Part shown: positions 245 to 57,140 of the stretch, piece after piece | Layout: each line of letters begins with the position of its first letter | How positions within the stretch are numbered: the stretch's first letter is position 1 | The notes under the pieces: model-generated | What the model was told of the DNA's origin: nothing | Databases searched by the model: none | Seen by the model: the letters and a program-made list of their open reading frames with translations, nothing else | Translations under genes and position numbers: made by a program | Assembly (NCBI GenBank): GCA_017442735.1 | Contig: JAFRZE010000023.1 | Location: 1 to 64,000 of the forward strand | Direction of reading: 5' to 3' | DNA: 64,000 nt | From: Bacillota bacterium | Lineage (GTDB): Bacteria; Bacillota; Clostridia; Lachnospirales; Bianqueaceae

Positions 245-1726
245 TCAGATCAGGAACTGGTCCTTGACCGCCGGTTTCAGGGTCCACATCCGGATGAACG
301 TATCGCCGGTGATCTTCGCGAAATGTTCTTCCTTCGTCGGGAAAACACGTGAAGTGAAGACAGCATCGCCGTCGTTCACAAAGATCTCGATACTGCTTCG
401 GTCAACAAAGATCCGCAGATGGAACAGGGAACTTTCCAGCGGACGCATACGGCTGTCACCTTCCGAAAGATTGAAACGGGTCTTCATACCGCTGCGATCT
501 ACCAGGATCTCTCGTGTCTCTTCTTTATAATCGATCGTGATGCCGCCCTCACCGGCCTCATCCGCCAGCAGCGACAGATGTACATCACCCGGCCGGCAGT
601 CGAGCTCCAGCTCTGCCGCCTCGGGCAGGCGGAAAGCGCCGGCTTCGTTTGTGGCTGTTTCCACTCTTTCATCCCGTAGTTTCTTCAGTTCCGGCAATGG
701 CTGCTGGATCAAACGGCGGCCTCTCACCGTCAGTTCCCTGGGCAAGGTCAGGCAACCGGCCCAGTCTTCTTCGTCGGTCGGATAGGAAACATCCGGCAGG
801 CCCATCCAGGCGATCAGGATCGCCTTGTCCGCATCCTGCAGGTTGTTCGCGCAGGCCGCGGCGTAGGAATCAAAGCCGAAATCCAGTACATGGAACTGGC
901 CGTCCGGGGTAAAGGTCAGGGTATCCCAGTCCATGGATCCCAGAATATAGCCATTATGATTCTGACTGCCGCCACGTCCCGGCAGGCTCATATGCTGCGG
1001 GCAGAACAGGAAAACATCCTTTCCCCCGATATGCTCGATCGACGGGCATTCCCACATATCTCCGAAGTGTTCGAAACCCGGCACTTTCAGTTCACCGGCA
1101 AACGTCCATCCATGCTGCAGATCTTCCGAGGCATAGATGAGCGCGCAGCCGGTTTTTTCTTTTGTCTGCGCTCCGATAATCATATAGTAGGTATCGCTGC
1201 CGGGCAGGCAGATGATTTTCGGGTCGCGCTGATGCTCGGTATAATTCGGATTCGCGCCGAAGAGCGGAAGCGGATATTTCTCCGTCCACCCGTCATCGCC
1301 CAGCCTGGCGAGGCAGGTATAGGCGTGCCTCGTCCAGTCGGCGTCCCGGTGATTGCCCGTATAATATAGATACATCTTATCACCGATAGGAAACGCGGAG
1401 CCTGAATAGGCGCCTTTATTGTCATAGCCGTCCCCGTCGTCCGGGATGAGGCAGATGCCCAGGTTTTTCCAGGTCACGAGGTCCTTCGAAACGATGTGGT
1501 ACCAGTACTTGAGCCCATGCACAGCGCCCCAGGGACACCACTGGTAGAACAGGTGCCAGCGGTTGTCGTGCCAGACGAAACCGTTCGGATCGTTCATGAG
1601 ACCCGTGACCGCCTGGTTGTGAAAGAGCTGGCGGTACGACGACTGGCTGATCCGCTCAAACAGCGGATACACTTCCTGCGGATCCCGCAGATAGCGGTAT
1701 CTCTCTTCTCTCGTCCATTCGCGCAT
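245..1726 (-). CDS. Glycoside hydrolase family 32 (sucrose/fructan hydrolase)
   Basis: A 493-residue GH32 enzyme that cleaves beta-fructosidic bonds in sucrose, sucrose-6-phosphate or fructo-oligosaccharides. The nucleophile motif NDPNG is at residues 45-49, the RDPK transition-state motif near residue 167 and the acid/base ECPS motif near 225, followed by the usual C-terminal beta-sandwich. There is no signal peptide, so it probably acts in the cytoplasm on imported sugar. The start follows a GGAGG site. No fructose transporter or kinase lies beside it, so sucrose-6-phosphate hydrolase versus fructanase cannot be decided here. A peroxiredoxin gene lies 30 bp upstream on the same strand. Confidence 0.9.
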   Translation of the reverse strand: MREWTREERYRYLRDPQEVYPLFERISQSSYRQLFHNQAVTGLMNDPNGFVWHDNRWHLFYQWCPWGAVHGLKYWYHIVSKDLVTWKNLGICLIPDDGDGYDNKGAYSGSAFPIGDKMYLYYTGNHRDADWTRHAYTCLARLGDDGWTEKYPLPLFGANPNYTEHQRDPKIICLPGSDTYYMIIGAQTKEKTGCALIYASEDLQHGWTFAGELKVPGFEHFGDMWECPSIEHIGGKDVFLFCPQHMSLPGRGGSQNHNGYILGSMDWDTLTFTPDGQFHVLDFGFDSYAAACANNLQDADKAILIAWMGLPDVSYPTDEEDWAGCLTLPRELTVRGRRLIQQPLPELKKLRDERVETATNEAGAFRLPEAAELELDCRPGDVHLSLLADEAGEGGITIDYKEETREILVDRSGMKTRFNLSEGDSRMRPLESSLFHLRIFVDRSSIEIFVNDGDAVFTSRVFPTKEEHFAKITGDTFIRMWTLKPAVKDQFLI

Positions 1727-1756
1727 GATTCTACCTCCGTTCGCGAAACACGCTGT

Positions 1757-2302
1757 TCAAATCATTTTGAGGAGTTCTTTGATCGTCGGCAGGCCCATGA
1801 TATTCTCGGCATAGATGGATTCGAGCACGGTCCCTTCCTGATCCACGATGAACATGGCCGGAAGCTGCTGCTCGTTGCCTTCATATTTGCCATGGGAGAA
1901 GCCCGCAAGCTTGGCCGCGGCGCCTTTCGCCATAAGAGCTGCCATCTTGCCGCCGGCGAGAGCCTGCATGGACTCGGCCGGCTTGATCTCCAGTTCTTCG
2001 TACAGCTTCATCGACGGGTCGCAGATGATGTCGAACGGAAGCTGGATGTCCTTCAGTTCTTCCTGCAGGACGCTCTTTTCGCTCTGCAGCATGAAAACGA
2101 TCTTCGCGCCTTTCTCGATGAAATCGTTATACTGTTTCGCCGCGAGGTGGATGTCGTACCGGCAGACAGTGCAGCCGATGTAGCGAAGACACCAGAGGAT
2201 CGTCTTCGGCGCGGTGAAAAGATCCTGCATCATTCCTTCGCCCTTATACAGGGTATCGATCGCGAGATTCGGGAATTTGTCTCCCACTTGTACTTTTGCC
2301 AT
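1757..2302 (-). CDS. Peroxiredoxin-like (AhpC/TSA) redoxin
   Basis: A 181-residue thioredoxin-fold protein of the AhpC/TSA-Redoxin type, expected to reduce peroxides or act as a thiol oxidoreductase. A CTVC motif follows the second strand (residues about 44-47), where bacterioferritin-comigratory-type peroxiredoxins have a TxxC motif. The C-terminal half has the thioredoxin-fold PAMFIVDQEG strand. An Ala/Lys-rich insert near residues 110-135 is not typical. The start has a good AGGAGG site. It lies between the zinc-ribbon gene and GH32 and may be cotranscribed with both. The exact substrate is unknown. Confidence 0.75.
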   Translation of the reverse strand: MAKVQVGDKFPNLAIDTLYKGEGMMQDLFTAPKTILWCLRYIGCTVCRYDIHLAAKQYNDFIEKGAKIVFMLQSEKSVLQEELKDIQLPFDIICDPSMKLYEELEIKPAESMQALAGGKMAALMAKGAAAKLAGFSHGKYEGNEQQLPAMFIVDQEGTVLESIYAENIMGLPTIKELLKMI

Positions 2303-2316
2303 GTTAAGTTCCTCCT

Positions 2317-3726
2317 TTAATATTTCTGTTCCGGGATCAGACTTGCCGGGTCAAGATTATCATAGTCATACACATAGATCGTCACTCTGGTAAAATACTC
2401 TTTTCCTTTTTCCGTATACTCGTCAATAAACGAATACGGATCCGTGCTCAAATCAACACCTACCGTGTATTCGTAGTGATAACGAACGTCTCCCCGATCC
2501 GTGTACTCATACACATCGGTCACCCAGGTGGCGTCAATGGGAGGGTTCGTACCGGGATTCACTTCGTGGCGAGTAACCAGAAGTATCCGCCCATTCTCAT
2601 CCAGCTCATTGGTGTACGTGACCGTTCCATCCAGTACTCCGGTGCCACCGTTCACTGTTTGGATCAGATTTCCGTATTCATCATATATATAGTCCACCCG
2701 GTTGGTGACCGTCCCATCGACCGTAAGGTTCTGGGTCCAGAGGATCTTCCCATCCTCGTCATATTCGGTTTCTGTGATCAGGTCGTTTTCACCCGAGCGG
2801 CTGTAGATGTGGCAGTAGATCTCGTTCCCGGCCTCATCATAGCGCCATTCCGTGGTCAGTCGGGTCACGCCGGTCTCGACGTTGTAGGTAGTCATCGCTT
2901 TATACAGCCCGTCCTCGCTGTATTCATAGGTCGCCTCGATCTGCAGTGTCTCCGTCCCATCGGCAAGCCGGGTATTCACTGTTTCTTTCGTGGGACGTCC
3001 CTGTGCGTCATATTCCATATAGTGGTGGGAGGACGGACCTATGGACTCGATCATGTTGCCGTTTTCATCATATGTTGTTTCCGCCACGTTGCCATATGCA
3101 TCCGCGGAAAGGATCTCCCGGCCTTCCAGATCATATTCCACGTAGGAACCGTCCGAATTGTCCCTGCGGCTGCGTTTGCCCAATGCCCCATACTGGTAGG
3201 TAGTCCAGCTGTTGGCATATCCGTCGGGCATGTCCGCGTATTCGACCCTTGTTGTCCGACCAAGTACATCATAGGTGTAGCGTGTCGTTTCGACTCCAAG
3301 GGAATCAACCTCGATGACATATGTCTTTTTCGCTTTCTTTTCTTCCTCTTTGGTTTCCGCCGAAGACGAAGTCTTTTTGTCGTCTTTCTCTTCTTCCTCT
3401 TCTTCGTCCTCCTCGTCTTCGTCCTCATCTTCATCCTCGTCTCTGTCGCGTGAAGCGTGAGACGGTCTGTAGCTCTCAGAGGGTTTAGGGCTCCCTCCCG
3501 TCCGGATCAGGATGACGATGATCGTCGTGATAAGCGCGACGACAATAAAGCCTATCACCAGCAGTAAAATCAGGACGCCTTTGCGGATGCCTTTCTTCGG
3601 TGGCTGCTGCGGTTCCCACGGCTGTTGGGGTTGCGGTTGCTGGACAGCCGGAAGCGGCTGACCGCAGAAGTTACAAAAATTATTGAGATCCGGGTTCTGA
3701 TTTCCGCATCGCGGACATATTTTCAT
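2317..3726 (-). CDS. Zinc-ribbon membrane protein with acidic linker and YD-like repeats
   Basis: A 469-residue protein in four parts. Residues 1-25 form a zinc ribbon (CPRCGNQN and CNFCGQ). A Gln/Pro-rich linker and one transmembrane helix at about 47-72 follow. Next is a strongly acidic Asp/Glu run (about 95-120) with a Lys-rich stretch. The remaining ~330 residues are YD-type repeats (YDxxGR, YDENGN, YDEDGK, YDEYGN), resembling RHS/teneurin beta-repeats but without a toxin tip. The N-terminus should be cytoplasmic and the repeats outside. The start has an AAGGAG site. The function is not recognised; zinc-ribbon membrane proteins with diverse outer domains are common in gut Bacillota. Confidence 0.75.
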   Translation of the reverse strand: MKICPRCGNQNPDLNNFCNFCGQPLPAVQQPQPQQPWEPQQPPKKGIRKGVLILLLVIGFIVVALITTIIVILIRTGGSPKPSESYRPSHASRDRDEDEDEDEDEEDEEEEEEKDDKKTSSSAETKEEEKKAKKTYVIEVDSLGVETTRYTYDVLGRTTRVEYADMPDGYANSWTTYQYGALGKRSRRDNSDGSYVEYDLEGREILSADAYGNVAETTYDENGNMIESIGPSSHHYMEYDAQGRPTKETVNTRLADGTETLQIEATYEYSEDGLYKAMTTYNVETGVTRLTTEWRYDEAGNEIYCHIYSRSGENDLITETEYDEDGKILWTQNLTVDGTVTNRVDYIYDEYGNLIQTVNGGTGVLDGTVTYTNELDENGRILLVTRHEVNPGTNPPIDATWVTDVYEYTDRGDVRYHYEYTVGVDLSTDPYSFIDEYTEKGKEYFTRVTIYVYDYDNLDPASLIPEQKY

Positions 3727-3964: not shown

Positions 3965-5107
3965 ATGCGATATAGAAAACTTGGAAAGACCGGCCTGATG
4001 GTCAGTGAGATCGGCTTCGGCGGTGAATGGCTGGAGCGCCATGAATTCGAAGAATCCGTCGAACTCATGAAATACGCCCACTCGCTGGGCGTGAATATCA
4101 TCGACTGCTGGATGCCCGATCCGAAATCACGCGATATCATTGGCGCAGCGATGGAAGGCTGCCGTGAAGAGTGGTTCGTCCAGGGCCACATCGGCTCCAC
4201 CTACCAGAACGGCCAGTATGTGAGAAGCCGCGATCTCGCGGTCGTCAAACCAGCGATCGAAGACCTCCTCGCACGCATGAAGACCGACTACATCGATCTG
4301 GGCATGATCCATTATGTGGACAGCCAGGATCAATGGGACGAGTGCATGAATACCGAGTATATTCATTATGTCAAGGAGCTGAAAAAAACCGGAACGATCC
4401 GGCACATCGGCATTTCAACTCACAATCCGCGGATCGCGAAAATGGCGGCTGAAAGCGGTTTTATCGAAATGATCCTCTTTTCCATCAACCCCGCCTTTGA
4501 TATGCGTCCCGCTACCGAGGATCTGGATTCCATGTTTGGCGACTACGATCAGAACCTTTCGGGCATCGATCCGGAACGGGCTGAGTTCTATCAGATCGCG
4601 GAGGAGAATGATGTCGGCATCACTGTGATGAAAGGTTTCTTTGGCGGCCGTCTGTTCGATTCGGAAAGATCTCCCTTCGGCGTGGCGTTTACGCCCCTCC
4701 AGTGCATTCACTATGCGCTCACCCGGCCGGGTGTGACTTCCATTCTGTGCGGGTTTGATACAAAGGAACAAGTGGCAGAGGCAGCATCCTATGAGAACGC
4801 CTCTCCCGAAGAAACCGACTACGCTTCTGTGATCGCCTCCGCGCCGCTGCACGCCTATTCCGGACAATGTACTTACTGCGGGCATTGTAAACCGTGTCCG
4901 ATGGACATTGATATCGCCATGGTGAACAAGTTCTATGATCTGGCCGTTCTGCAGCCGGAAGTGCCGGAAAGTGTCCGACAGCATTATCTGGATCTCGGTG
5001 TGACCGCATCCGCCTGTATTGGCTGTCAAAGCTGCGAATCCCGCTGCCCGTTCGGCGTGGCGATCGCGGATCGGATGGCCAAAGCCGCGGCACTGTTCGA
5101 AGGATAA
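3965..5107 (+). CDS. Aldo/keto reductase with C-terminal 4Fe-4S domain
   Basis: A 380-residue aldo/keto reductase. The TIM-barrel part begins MRYRKLGKTG, typical of the family, and includes DYIDLGMIHYVD. The C-terminal ~90 residues contain two CxxCxxCxxxCP cysteine clusters (CTYCGHCKPCP and CIGCQSCESRCP), a ferredoxin-like module expected to bind two 4Fe-4S clusters. Such fused enzymes are frequent in anaerobic Bacillota; their substrates are mostly unknown. An in-frame ATG lies 30 bp upstream, but AAGGAGG at 3954-3960 sits correctly only for the ATG at 3965. It is followed after 21 bp by a phosphoesterase gene on the same strand. Confidence 0.9.
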   Translation: MRYRKLGKTGLMVSEIGFGGEWLERHEFEESVELMKYAHSLGVNIIDCWMPDPKSRDIIGAAMEGCREEWFVQGHIGSTYQNGQYVRSRDLAVVKPAIEDLLARMKTDYIDLGMIHYVDSQDQWDECMNTEYIHYVKELKKTGTIRHIGISTHNPRIAKMAAESGFIEMILFSINPAFDMRPATEDLDSMFGDYDQNLSGIDPERAEFYQIAEENDVGITVMKGFFGGRLFDSERSPFGVAFTPLQCIHYALTRPGVTSILCGFDTKEQVAEAASYENASPEETDYASVIASAPLHAYSGQCTYCGHCKPCPMDIDIAMVNKFYDLAVLQPEVPESVRQHYLDLGVTASACIGCQSCESRCPFGVAIADRMAKAAALFEG

Positions 5108-55893: not shown

Positions 55894-55923
55894 AACACCT
55901 TGCCAAAGCTGTAGCAAGGTGTT
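55894..55923. repeat. Perfect 10-bp hairpin in the tRNA-operon trailer
   Basis: AACACCTTGC and GCAAGGTGTT pair around a 10-base loop. On the minus strand it is followed by GTGCTTTTT, a terminator-like tail. It begins the series of related stem-loops to 56107. Bases 55759-55893 hold no gene that I can see. Confidence 0.6.
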
Positions 55924-55938
55924 CAGTAAAAAGAGGCT

Positions 55939-56107
55939 GACCTTGCTATAGCTTCACCCAAAAATAGCAAGGTATCAGATATAATGGTAGAAATCTTGCT
56001 AGTAGATTGGCAAGGCATACGTCAAAAATGGGGCGGCCTTGCTATAGCTTGCCCGAAGAATAGCAAGGTATCCGCTAAAACAGTAAAAATCTTGTTAGTT
56101 CCATTGA
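55939..56107. repeat. Tandem 97-bp repeat of CCTTGC/GCAAGG stem-loops
   Basis: A unit of about 97 bp starts at 55939 and again at 56036. Each has CCTTGCTATAGCTT, a short spacer and AATAGCAAGGTATC (perfect stem CTTGCTAT/ATAGCAAG), then CTTGCTAG-type or CTTGTTAG half-stems ~54 bases later. The second copy stops at the 3' end of tRNA-Glu. On the minus strand at least one stem is followed by CTTTTT, so they may end or protect the tRNA transcript. Confidence 0.65.
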
Positions 56108-56181
56108 TGACCCCTGCCGGATTCGAACCGAGCATCGCCAGCGTGAAAGGCTGGTGTCCTGACCGATTAGACGAAGGGGCC
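56108..56181 (-). tRNA. tRNA-Glu (UUC)
   Basis: GGCCCCT pairs with AGGGGTC; the anticodon stem CCAGC/GCTGG encloses CTTTCAC, anticodon TTC. D-arm and T-arm (GGTTCGAATCC) are regular. No CCA is encoded. It is the last tRNA of the array, downstream of the XRE gene. Confidence 0.93.
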
Positions 56182-56204
56182 TTATGAGGCTGAACGTGCC
56201 AGCC

Positions 56205-56426
56205 TCAGATCATTTTGGTCACGATGATATCATCGATAGATACACCGAAGATAGATGCTAATACGACGAAATTATCGATGGACGGCATCGTGTCTCCTCT
56301 TTGCCACTTACAGACAGAACCTTTGGAAATGCCGCAGGTATCTACGATCTGACTGATCGTCACGCCTGCGTCTTTTCTTATTTTTCTGATATTCTGCCCC
56401 GTGGCGACCATGTCGATCACAGGCAT
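56205..56426 (-). CDS. XRE-family helix-turn-helix regulator inside the tRNA array
   Basis: A 73-residue single-domain Cro/CI-type regulator: NIRKIRKDAGVTISQIVDT, then CGISKGSVCKWQRGDTMP and FGVSIDD. No effector domain. AAGGAGG lies nine bases before the ATG at 56426. It sits between the tRNA-Leu-like (CAG) gene (70 bp upstream) and tRNA-Glu (23 bp downstream), on the same strand, so it is probably cotranscribed with the tRNAs. Its target is unknown; autoregulation of the array is possible. Confidence 0.85.
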   Translation of the reverse strand: MPVIDMVATGQNIRKIRKDAGVTISQIVDTCGISKGSVCKWQRGDTMPSIDNFVVLASIFGVSIDDIIVTKMI

Positions 56427-56495
56427 TTTCTTTTTCTCCTCCTTTCTTTTTCAGAATCATATTTGCTTTTCCGAACGATCAAACTGTCCGGAGAA

Positions 56496-56569: not shown

Positions 56570-56573
56570 AAAG

Positions 56574-56656
56574 TGGGCCGACCTGGACTCGAACCAGGAA
56601 TGTCCGAAGACGGCGGATTTACAGTCCGCTGCGTTACCAATTCCGCTCACCGACCC
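56574..56656 (-). tRNA. tRNA-Tyr (GUA)
   Basis: Acceptor GGGTCGG with TCGGCCC (one G-U), anticodon stem GCGGA/TCCGC with CTGTAAA loop, anticodon GTA. It has a long variable arm (GTC-TTCG-GAC), as expected for bacterial tRNA-Tyr, and T-arm CCTGG/CCAGG. No CCA encoded. Confidence 0.93.
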
Positions 56657-56683
56657 GTGCTTTTTACCGGCATGCCGGCAAAG

Positions 56684-56757
56684 TACTCTCGATGGGATTC
56701 GAACCCATACTGGCACGGTCCTTAGCCGTGTGTCTCCTTCCTTTGGACTACGAGAGC
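56684..56757 (-). tRNA. tRNA with Leu anticodon (AAG), short variable loop
   Basis: Acceptor GCTCTCG with CGAGAGT (terminal G-U), discriminator A. Anticodon stem CACGG/CCGTG is perfect; loop CTAAGGA gives AAG, for leucine CUU/CUC after A34 deamination. T-arm ATGGG/CCCAT. Five-base variable loop CCAGT, not the long arm of tRNA-Leu. Shares the D-arm GTCCAAAGGAAGGAGAC type with its two relatives, including a C13-A22 mismatch. Confidence 0.7.
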
Positions 56758-56760
56758 CTG

Positions 56761-56833
56761 TGTTTCCGGCGGGATTCGAACTCGCACTTCTCAGGGTTTA
56801 AACCTGATGTCTCTTCCATTGGACTACGGAAAC
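56761..56833 (-). tRNA. tRNA with Leu anticodon (UAA), short variable loop
   Basis: Acceptor GTTTCCG with CGGAAAC is perfect, discriminator A. Anticodon stem TCAGG/CCTGA with loop TTTAAAC gives TAA, reading leucine UUA. T-arm GCGAG/CCCGC has one mismatch. Variable loop of five bases, GAAGT. D-arm GTCCAATGGAAGAGAC. First tRNA of the array, only 12 bp after the leader terminator and three bases before the AAG tRNA. Confidence 0.7.
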
Positions 56834-56844
56834 TGAAAAACGGA

Positions 56845-56883
56845 CAGAAAAAGACCCGTCGCGGAACAGTCCGTAACGGGTCT
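56845..56883 (-). terminator. Intrinsic terminator before the tRNA array (attenuator)
   Basis: AGACCCGT and ACGGGTCT form a perfect 8-bp stem with further pairing in the loop, followed on the minus strand by TTTTT. It lies between the 41-codon leader frame and the first tRNA gene. The loop segment TGTTCCGCG can instead pair with CGTGGAACA in the leader frame (56958-56966). Confidence 0.75.
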
Positions 56884-56920
56884 CATCTGTTTGCAAATAT
56901 GATTCTGAATCGGAGAAAGA

Positions 56921-57046
56921 TCACTTCCGCCGCAGTATTCGCGATCCCATTCGGTTTTGTTCCACGCAAACCAAGCCCTTATACTCAAGATACAGGGCTT
57001 CCGTTAGTTCCGCGTATAAACCGATAACATGGAAATTGCGAATCAT
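56921..57046 (-). CDS. Leader peptide, 41 residues, Leu/Tyr/Glu-rich
   Basis: An ATG frame of 41 codons after an AAAAGGA site and a consensus promoter. Residues 10-25 read LYAELTEALYLEYKGL, 11 of 16 being Leu, Tyr or Glu. Codons for leucine include UUA, CUG and CUU, those read by the three Leu-anticodon tRNAs downstream. A hairpin (AAGCCCT/AGGGCTT, 56973-57000) spans codons 17-25. Not related to known proteins. Best read as a regulatory leader rather than a working protein. Confidence 0.5.
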   Translation of the reverse strand: MIRNFHVIGLYAELTEALYLEYKGLVCVEQNRMGSRILRRK

Positions 57047-57080
57047 GGCTTCTTTTTCCTTTCTTTTGGATTCTATGGCA

Positions 57081-57109
57081 ATTATATGCGATTCTTTACG
57101 ATTTCACAA
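57081..57109 (-). promoter_or_regulatory. Promoter of the leader/tRNA unit, TTGTGA-17-TATAAT
   Basis: On the minus strand TTGTGA (57109-57104) and a perfect TATAAT (57086-57081) are 17 bp apart. Transcription would start near 57074, ~28 bases before the leader ATG. Confidence 0.7.
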
Positions 57110-57140
57110 GTGTCTTCCCAGGTAACCTATAAAACATGTA

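Follow-up and report, generated by a model that had tools for sequence, protein, structure and literature searches.

We analysed a stretch of 64,000 nucleotides (the window, meaning the whole of this stretch) and identified on its minus strand a spare tRNA operon that is likely to be preceded by a ribosome-mediated transcription attenuator. Four components of this reading were shown by computation: the anatomy of the locus, its conservation, the competing folds and the match between leader composition and array. Translation of the leader, stalling-dependent readthrough and the trigger are inferred, there being no expression or ribosome data. A sequence-only reading of the window had proposed leader-peptide attenuation of a tRNA operon driven by lack of charged tRNA, and this interpretation was supported, with corrections to the antiterminator and the trigger. 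Leader attenuation is textbook knowledge for amino-acid synthesis; we found none described for tRNA genes. Neither leader-peptide attenuation nor ribosome stalling at tRNA operons appeared in the open-access literature searched (subscription papers and preprints were outside the search), so the earlier remark that no such case was known met no precedent within that scope.

The operon reads, on the minus strand, leader, terminator, Leu-UAA, Leu-AAG, Tyr-GUA, Leu-CAG, HTH ORF and Glu-UUC, with the first tRNA starting at 56833, 3' of the intrinsic terminator. The promoter, the 41-codon frame, the terminator and the tRNA array had all been named beforehand, and each was confirmed at its position on the minus strand. 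Missed at that stage were the short form of the Leu tRNAs, the status of the array as an addition to the normal set, the HTH gene before tRNA-Glu, and the relatives. The features are as follows; G006 is a water-buffalo rumen MAG (RGIG8018).

57081-57109, minus strand: promoter TTGTGA-17-TATAAT (TTGTGA 57109-57104, 17-nt spacer, TATAAT 57086-57081)
57057-57064, minus strand: strong Shine-Dalgarno sequence AGAAAGGA, 10 nt 5' of the leader ATG
56921-57046, minus strand: leader ORF MIRNFHVIGLYAELTEALYLEYKGLVCVEQNRMGSRILRRK, 41 codons
56972-57019, minus strand: sensor block, codons 10-25, 11/16 Leu/Tyr/Glu
56943-56966, minus strand: antiterminator segment CGUGGAACAAAACCGAAUGGGAUC, pairing with 56882-56860
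56893-56909, minus strand: 17-nt leader segment perfectly complementary to 56466-56450
56848-56884, minus strand: intrinsic terminator (stem-loop 56884-56851, U run 56852-56848)
56760-56833, minus strand: tRNA-Leu(UAA), short form without long variable arm
56683-56757, minus strand: tRNA-Leu(AAG), short form
56573-56656, minus strand: tRNA-Tyr(GUA), resembling phage tRNA-Tyr
56495-56570, minus strand: tRNA-Leu(CAG), short form
56470-56492, minus strand: hairpin TCCGGAC..GTTCGGA without U run; a different hairpin stands in its place in G006
56450-56466, minus strand: part of the HTH 5' UTR that is complementary to the leader and lies a few nt 5' of the HTH Shine-Dalgarno sequence
56205-56426, minus strand: Cro/C1-type HTH protein of 73 aa (Pfam HTH_3), marker gene of related tRNA operons
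56185-56207, minus strand: hairpin TGAGGCTG..CAGCCTCA between the HTH gene and tRNA-Glu, with a compensatory change in G006
56108-56181, minus strand: tRNA-Glu(UUC), identical in G006

The array is an extra tRNA set beside a complete housekeeping set, since a whole-genome search and ARAGORN located tRNA-Leu of the usual long form (five anticodons), tRNA-Tyr and tRNA-Glu at other places in the genome. The three Leu tRNAs of the array are 73-74 nt long and lack the long variable arm. By wobble, anticodon UAA reads UUA and UUG, CAG reads CUG, and AAG reads CUU, CUC and CUA if its A is edited to I. Under these standard rules, and assuming the editing of AAG, the array decodes all Leu, Tyr and Glu codons. 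In G006 the first tRNA of the array, Leu(UAA), carries a compensatory C-G to G-C change in its acceptor stem; on this ground the array tRNAs look functional, although charging of the short Leu tRNAs is inferred. The same kind of short Leu tRNA (GTAGTCCAnnGGAAG(G)AGAC) was present in 55 viral contigs; Streptomyces and Kitasatospora have it as tRNA-Leu(CAA), and their chromosomal loci L042-L060 except L056 resemble both the window Leu tRNAs and the phage ones. Among phage records, the nearest to the array Tyr was a phage tRNA-Tyr. As a family marker the short-Leu pattern was rejected, for it returned the Streptomyces tRNA-Leu(CAA) and phages. A search with a short-Leu model recovered two further arrays, in G291 and G383. 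Loci L153 and L154 are phage-like arrays of about 17-26 unusual tRNAs, with short Leu tRNAs for several successive anticodons; this pair also hints that changes in array content may be accompanied by changes in leader residues. A prophage tRNA array was considered for the window and set aside: this would call for phage-gene surroundings, and the neighbours look metabolic, as judged from their sequences without a scan of the whole region against phage families.

Conservation of the locus was assessed against G006. Over 163 nt of leader and terminator there were 0 substitutions, the terminator being identical; the flanking CDS were 92.5% identical and the spacers 70-84%, the spacer before the HTH gene being at 70%. 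The leader frame counted one synonymous and one non-synonymous change per 41 codons. Silent sites were conserved as well, which points to RNA constraint. In the promoter, the -10 element was unchanged and the -35 element read TTGTGG. The locus was present in 2/7 same-genus genomes, and across 392 genomes of the order the window leader was found outside its source genome in G006 only; it was not found in phage records or viral contigs. Array-bearing relatives without a Leu/Tyr/Glu-rich frame would have refuted the proposal, but the sole other genome found with this array retains the frame.

Leader composition and competing RNA folds

The amino-acid set for the composition test was fixed beforehand by the tRNA identities of the array. 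Among all 969 amino-acid triples, Leu/Tyr/Glu was the most enriched for a dense block in the window leader, and a block of at least 11/16 such residues occurred in only 69 of 20,000 random 41-aa pieces of window proteins. The count of 11/16 for residues 10-25 had been made from the sequence alone and held. So did the presence of UUA, CUG and CUU in the block, which also contains CUA and UUG and therefore has five different Leu codons; three of these are rare in this DNA, at 2.7%, 2.4% and 5.8% (together 11% of Leu usage). In the window, as in the operon family described below, the control codons correspond to the amino acids of the tRNAs that the operon encodes. The window leader peptide had no match to a Pfam family, and leader peptides gave no convincing match in NCBIfam or PHROGs.

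The default predicted fold consists of a long leader hairpin, which sequesters 56966-56943, together with the terminator. The sequence-only reading had named a hairpin over codons 17-25 and a nine-base pairing between leader and terminator; both held, but the antiterminator extends beyond those nine pairs, which are embedded in a longer complementarity of 56966-56943 with 56882-56860. The full leader:terminator duplex reached -33.9 kcal/mol, equalled in 21 of 3000 codon shuffles. The self-fold of the ORF reached -38.5 kcal/mol, with 5/500 codon shuffles as stable, and overall folding of the leader was strong (z -3.96). Synonymous recoding produced similarly strong duplexes in 29% of cases, so that this null was not discriminating. 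As sole evidence the nine-base pairing was rejected, since, on a rough estimate, chance alone would yield about one match of this kind in a leader this long. Evidential weight rests only on the extended pairing and the family data.

We modelled stalling at equilibrium by masking the RNA up to the ribosome and placing the RNA 3' end at 56846. Modelled termination fell from about 1.0 to 0.2 with the ribosome at codons 16-17, and a stall-dependent switch this strong was seen in one of 200 codon-shuffled leaders. The equilibrium switch depends on the assumed 3' end: it was present at or before 56846 and lost at 56844. When upstream RNA was allowed to pair around the ribosome, termination was hardly altered at most positions. 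In a co-transcriptional model with nascent chains ending at 56862-56854, the predicted probability of the nine-pair helix was 0.87-0.99 for P-site codons 8-22, a range that covers the Leu/Tyr/Glu block, and near 0 with the P-site at codon 24 onward. As a general proof the equilibrium stall model was rejected, because it needs a 3' end at or before 56846 in the window and breaks down for other leaders, those of the NKQF family among them. The window leader is known from two close species only, which puts its folds beyond covariation testing.

Related tRNA operons with leaders and terminators

Using the HTH protein as query against the 392 genomes of the order, we found that about half of its best homologues sit in tRNA arrays, which makes the protein a useful family marker. 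Members of the family share a layout in which leader ORF and terminator are followed by tRNAs and HTH, with the RNA ligase RtcB added in some. With larger flanks and with phage and viral records included, 24 leader-terminator-array units were found, all detected without use of leader composition. Many related leaders are also preceded by AGAAAGGA. A member in another genus of the same bacterial family (G012) has a 40-aa leader MIFRNFPLYKLESLLESLRERTGS..., a terminator, HTH, tRNA-Glu and tRNA-Ser, the contig ending soon after. Two related leader peptides had no match in phage and plasmid records.

Comparison of leaders across relatives, which had been proposed as a check, showed that compositions follow the tRNA identities of each leader's own array. 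All 19 of 19 residues of leader NKQFNNKQFMQFCKNQKCF belong to its array set (Gln, Cys, Phe, Lys, Lys, Gln, Asn, Met). The proportion was 18/23 for SYCLHSESYQSSLLKYSEWGLHS, which precedes Glu, His, Tyr, Leu, Leu, Ser and Ser; 10/15 for YYFYSESYKSSLQYY, preceding Tyr and Ser; 13/14 for QISCSSQRNHQISR, preceding Ser, His, Ser, Ile, Gln, Cys, Arg, Gln and Arg; and 13/19 for FYMSEWQAIFQCEEYSFSE, preceding Glu, Gln, Cys, Glu, Trp, Gln, Phe and Tyr. In the G383 homologue of the QISCSSQRNHQISR leader the His residue is lost, and the array there is without tRNA-His. Weak leader-array matches were seen at L202, L201 and L190. A single related leader would watch as many as six unrelated amino acids together.

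When leaders and arrays were permuted across ten leader families, the observed match was reached in 3 of 200,000 permutations, or in 8 of 200,000 when best blocks were scored. Merging possibly homologous leaders to seven families with random representatives gave a median exact p of 0.0002 (maximum 0.0006), and without the window family the median exact p of this merged-family test was 0.0028. Indels in related leaders preserve the frame, and substitutions within the largest leader family were distributed over the three codon positions as 199/145/265, the third position taking the largest share. In the largest family (14 sequences), compensatory changes were present in the terminator and in a 5' UTR hairpin. 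A conserved late-ORF segment of this family pairs with the 5' arm of the terminator in 92.9% of cells, compared with 17-52% in a slid control; the columns vary too little to test covariation. Modelled termination dropped to about 0 with the ribosome on early or sensor codons at L186, L188, L191, L193, L194, L196 and L201, and the simple fold model showed no switch in several relatives (the NKQF family, L185, L202).

RtcB lies between terminator and HTH at L188, L195, L197 and L201, and also at L217, a viral contig, with Pfam PF01139 scoring 1e-54 for L201 and 1e-56 for L197. It is absent at the window, and no match was found in the window's genome (89% complete), so for that genome any link to repair is by analogy only. 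Three viral contigs (L217-L219) have a leader ORF, terminator and HTH without tRNA genes. At L194, ParA-like and replication-initiator-like genes, recognised by eye at about 323-3436, adjoin an attenuated tRNA array, and this array may possibly reside on a plasmid or other extrachromosomal element.

Proposed mechanism, trigger and rival explanations

In the mechanism we propose, a leader translated without delay, or bearing no ribosome, would fold into the long leader hairpin, the terminator would form and transcription would stop before the tRNAs. Under a scarcity of charged Leu-, Tyr- or Glu-tRNA, the ribosome would stall within codons 10-25, freeing 56966-56943 to capture the emerging terminator, and RNA polymerase would continue through the first tRNAs and the HTH gene to tRNA-Glu. 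As the array tRNAs are predicted to decode all Leu, Tyr and Glu codons, the operon would thereby replace what the leader found missing.

The trigger, inferred throughout, may be tRNA cleavage, starvation or antibiotics. We consider a signal in which the matching tRNAs are collectively lost or uncharged to be more likely than ordinary starvation for a single amino acid, because the array is spare and phage-like and several related operons add RtcB. It is known that RtcB rejoins cleaved tRNAs, so its presence in related operons makes tRNA cleavage a plausible signal. Since those operons carry a repair ligase and monitor up to six amino acids, cleavage or loss of host tRNAs (by toxins, or by phage or anti-phage nucleases) is inferred to be likelier than simple starvation.

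The strongest competitor concerns only the trigger and does not exclude our main reading: the attenuator works, and the signal is a shortage of free Leu, Tyr or Glu. This classical starvation remains possible, as attenuators of the trp/his/leu type act in this way and uncharged tRNA is the common intermediate. Nevertheless, an output of extra tRNA gives no relief of an amino-acid shortage, and related leaders monitor several unrelated amino acids, some with RtcB co-encoded. Alternatively, the leader may sense general translation stress such as ribosome-targeting antibiotics, its Leu/Tyr/Glu bias being incidental or secondary. Antibiotic-sensing leader attenuators are known, namely BmrB of B. 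subtilis (PMC4191407) and msrD (PMC10314930), and translation-targeting antibiotics induce the spare tRNA operon of Anabaena (PMC10272220). We regard this as unlikely, however, because leader composition tracks array identity across families, a match that a general stall sensor does not need.

More doubtful still is a constitutive RNA element (a processing stem, a terminator-derived sRNA or an HTH-controlled region) in which the ORF is no sensor. The perfect 17-nt complementarity between leader and HTH 5' UTR, the strong overall folding and the HTH regulator within the operon speak for it; the strong Shine-Dalgarno sequence, the frame-preserving indels and third-position-rich substitutions of related leaders, and the identity matching speak against it, and we hold it to be very unlikely. 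A T-box riboswitch sensing uncharged tRNA in place of the leader peptide can be practically ruled out: TGGAACA and TTCCGCG are faintly reminiscent of T-box/antiterminator sequence, but no Rfam 15 T-box match with E <= 1 was obtained in the window or in one related leader.

Attenuation by a ribosome stalled on the leader, our preferred reading, shares parts with several known systems. The trp, his, leu and pheST attenuators comprise a short leader ORF with control codons, competing hairpins and an intrinsic terminator before the operon, matching the sequence anatomy and predicted folds here; their output is biosynthetic enzymes or a synthetase, whereas that of the window is tRNAs matching several control amino acids. 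The nearest known spare tRNA operon, trn of Anabaena, is likewise a normally silent, stress-induced spare tRNA operon with rtcB in its regulon, repressed by TrcR and released by translational stress (PMC10272220). It differs in using an RHH repressor at the promoter, and that paper contains neither the word leader nor the word attenuation. In Salmonella, tRNA fragments activate the RtcB repair operon via RtcR (PMC7790460). The induction of a ligase by tRNA damage is similar, but there the CARF domain of RtcR senses the fragments, the window's genome has no RtcB match, and the words 'tRNA genes' and 'leader peptide' are absent from the paper. Phage arrays that evade tRNA-targeting defences (PMC10264068, PMC11555353) also supply additional tRNAs able to stand in for host tRNAs that have been depleted, and the type of short tRNA-Leu seen in the window array occurs in viral contigs too. 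By contrast, their abstracts name no leader attenuator, and the window array is chromosomal, among metabolic genes.

A bolder reading, which we would neither back nor dismiss, is a modular rescue from tRNA loss. The leader peptides would be exchangeable sensors listing the watched tRNAs, and the operons would supply replacements of the same identity, some with repair by RtcB; such modules would have spread over Clostridia-like chromosomes and mobile elements against tRNA-cleaving toxins, phages and anti-phage systems. If attenuation of this kind is true, peptide and products share one amino-acid list, and the sequence reveals a closed loop in which a shortage of tRNA calls up its supply. The conditions under which spare tRNA arrays switch on would also be suggested; what these arrays are for is debated. 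From the peptides one could further predict the tRNAs under attack in such bacteria, which may point to tRNA-cleaving toxins or immune systems not yet known.

The HTH gene and neighbouring elements

The 17-nt inverted repeat linking leader and HTH 5' UTR is retained in G006 with one G-U pair. Conceivable roles are an operator, an antisense element (the terminated leader acting on HTH mRNA) or a processing stem closing the four-tRNA cluster. The two hairpins flanking the HTH ORF are both without U runs, and their structure is kept in G006 despite sequence change; they could be processing sites. The region 3' of tRNA-Glu (55894-56100) contains direct and inverted repeats CCTTGCTA..TAGCAAGG, one of which forms a strong terminator at 55923-55894 on the minus strand. 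A second HTH locus of the same genome (L233, contig C9; minus strand, about 4583-5043 of the reverse complement) has its own leader ORF (MINNLYFSVNIIRKPAVRMNMQC..) and terminator without tRNAs, and its counterpart in G006 is L199.
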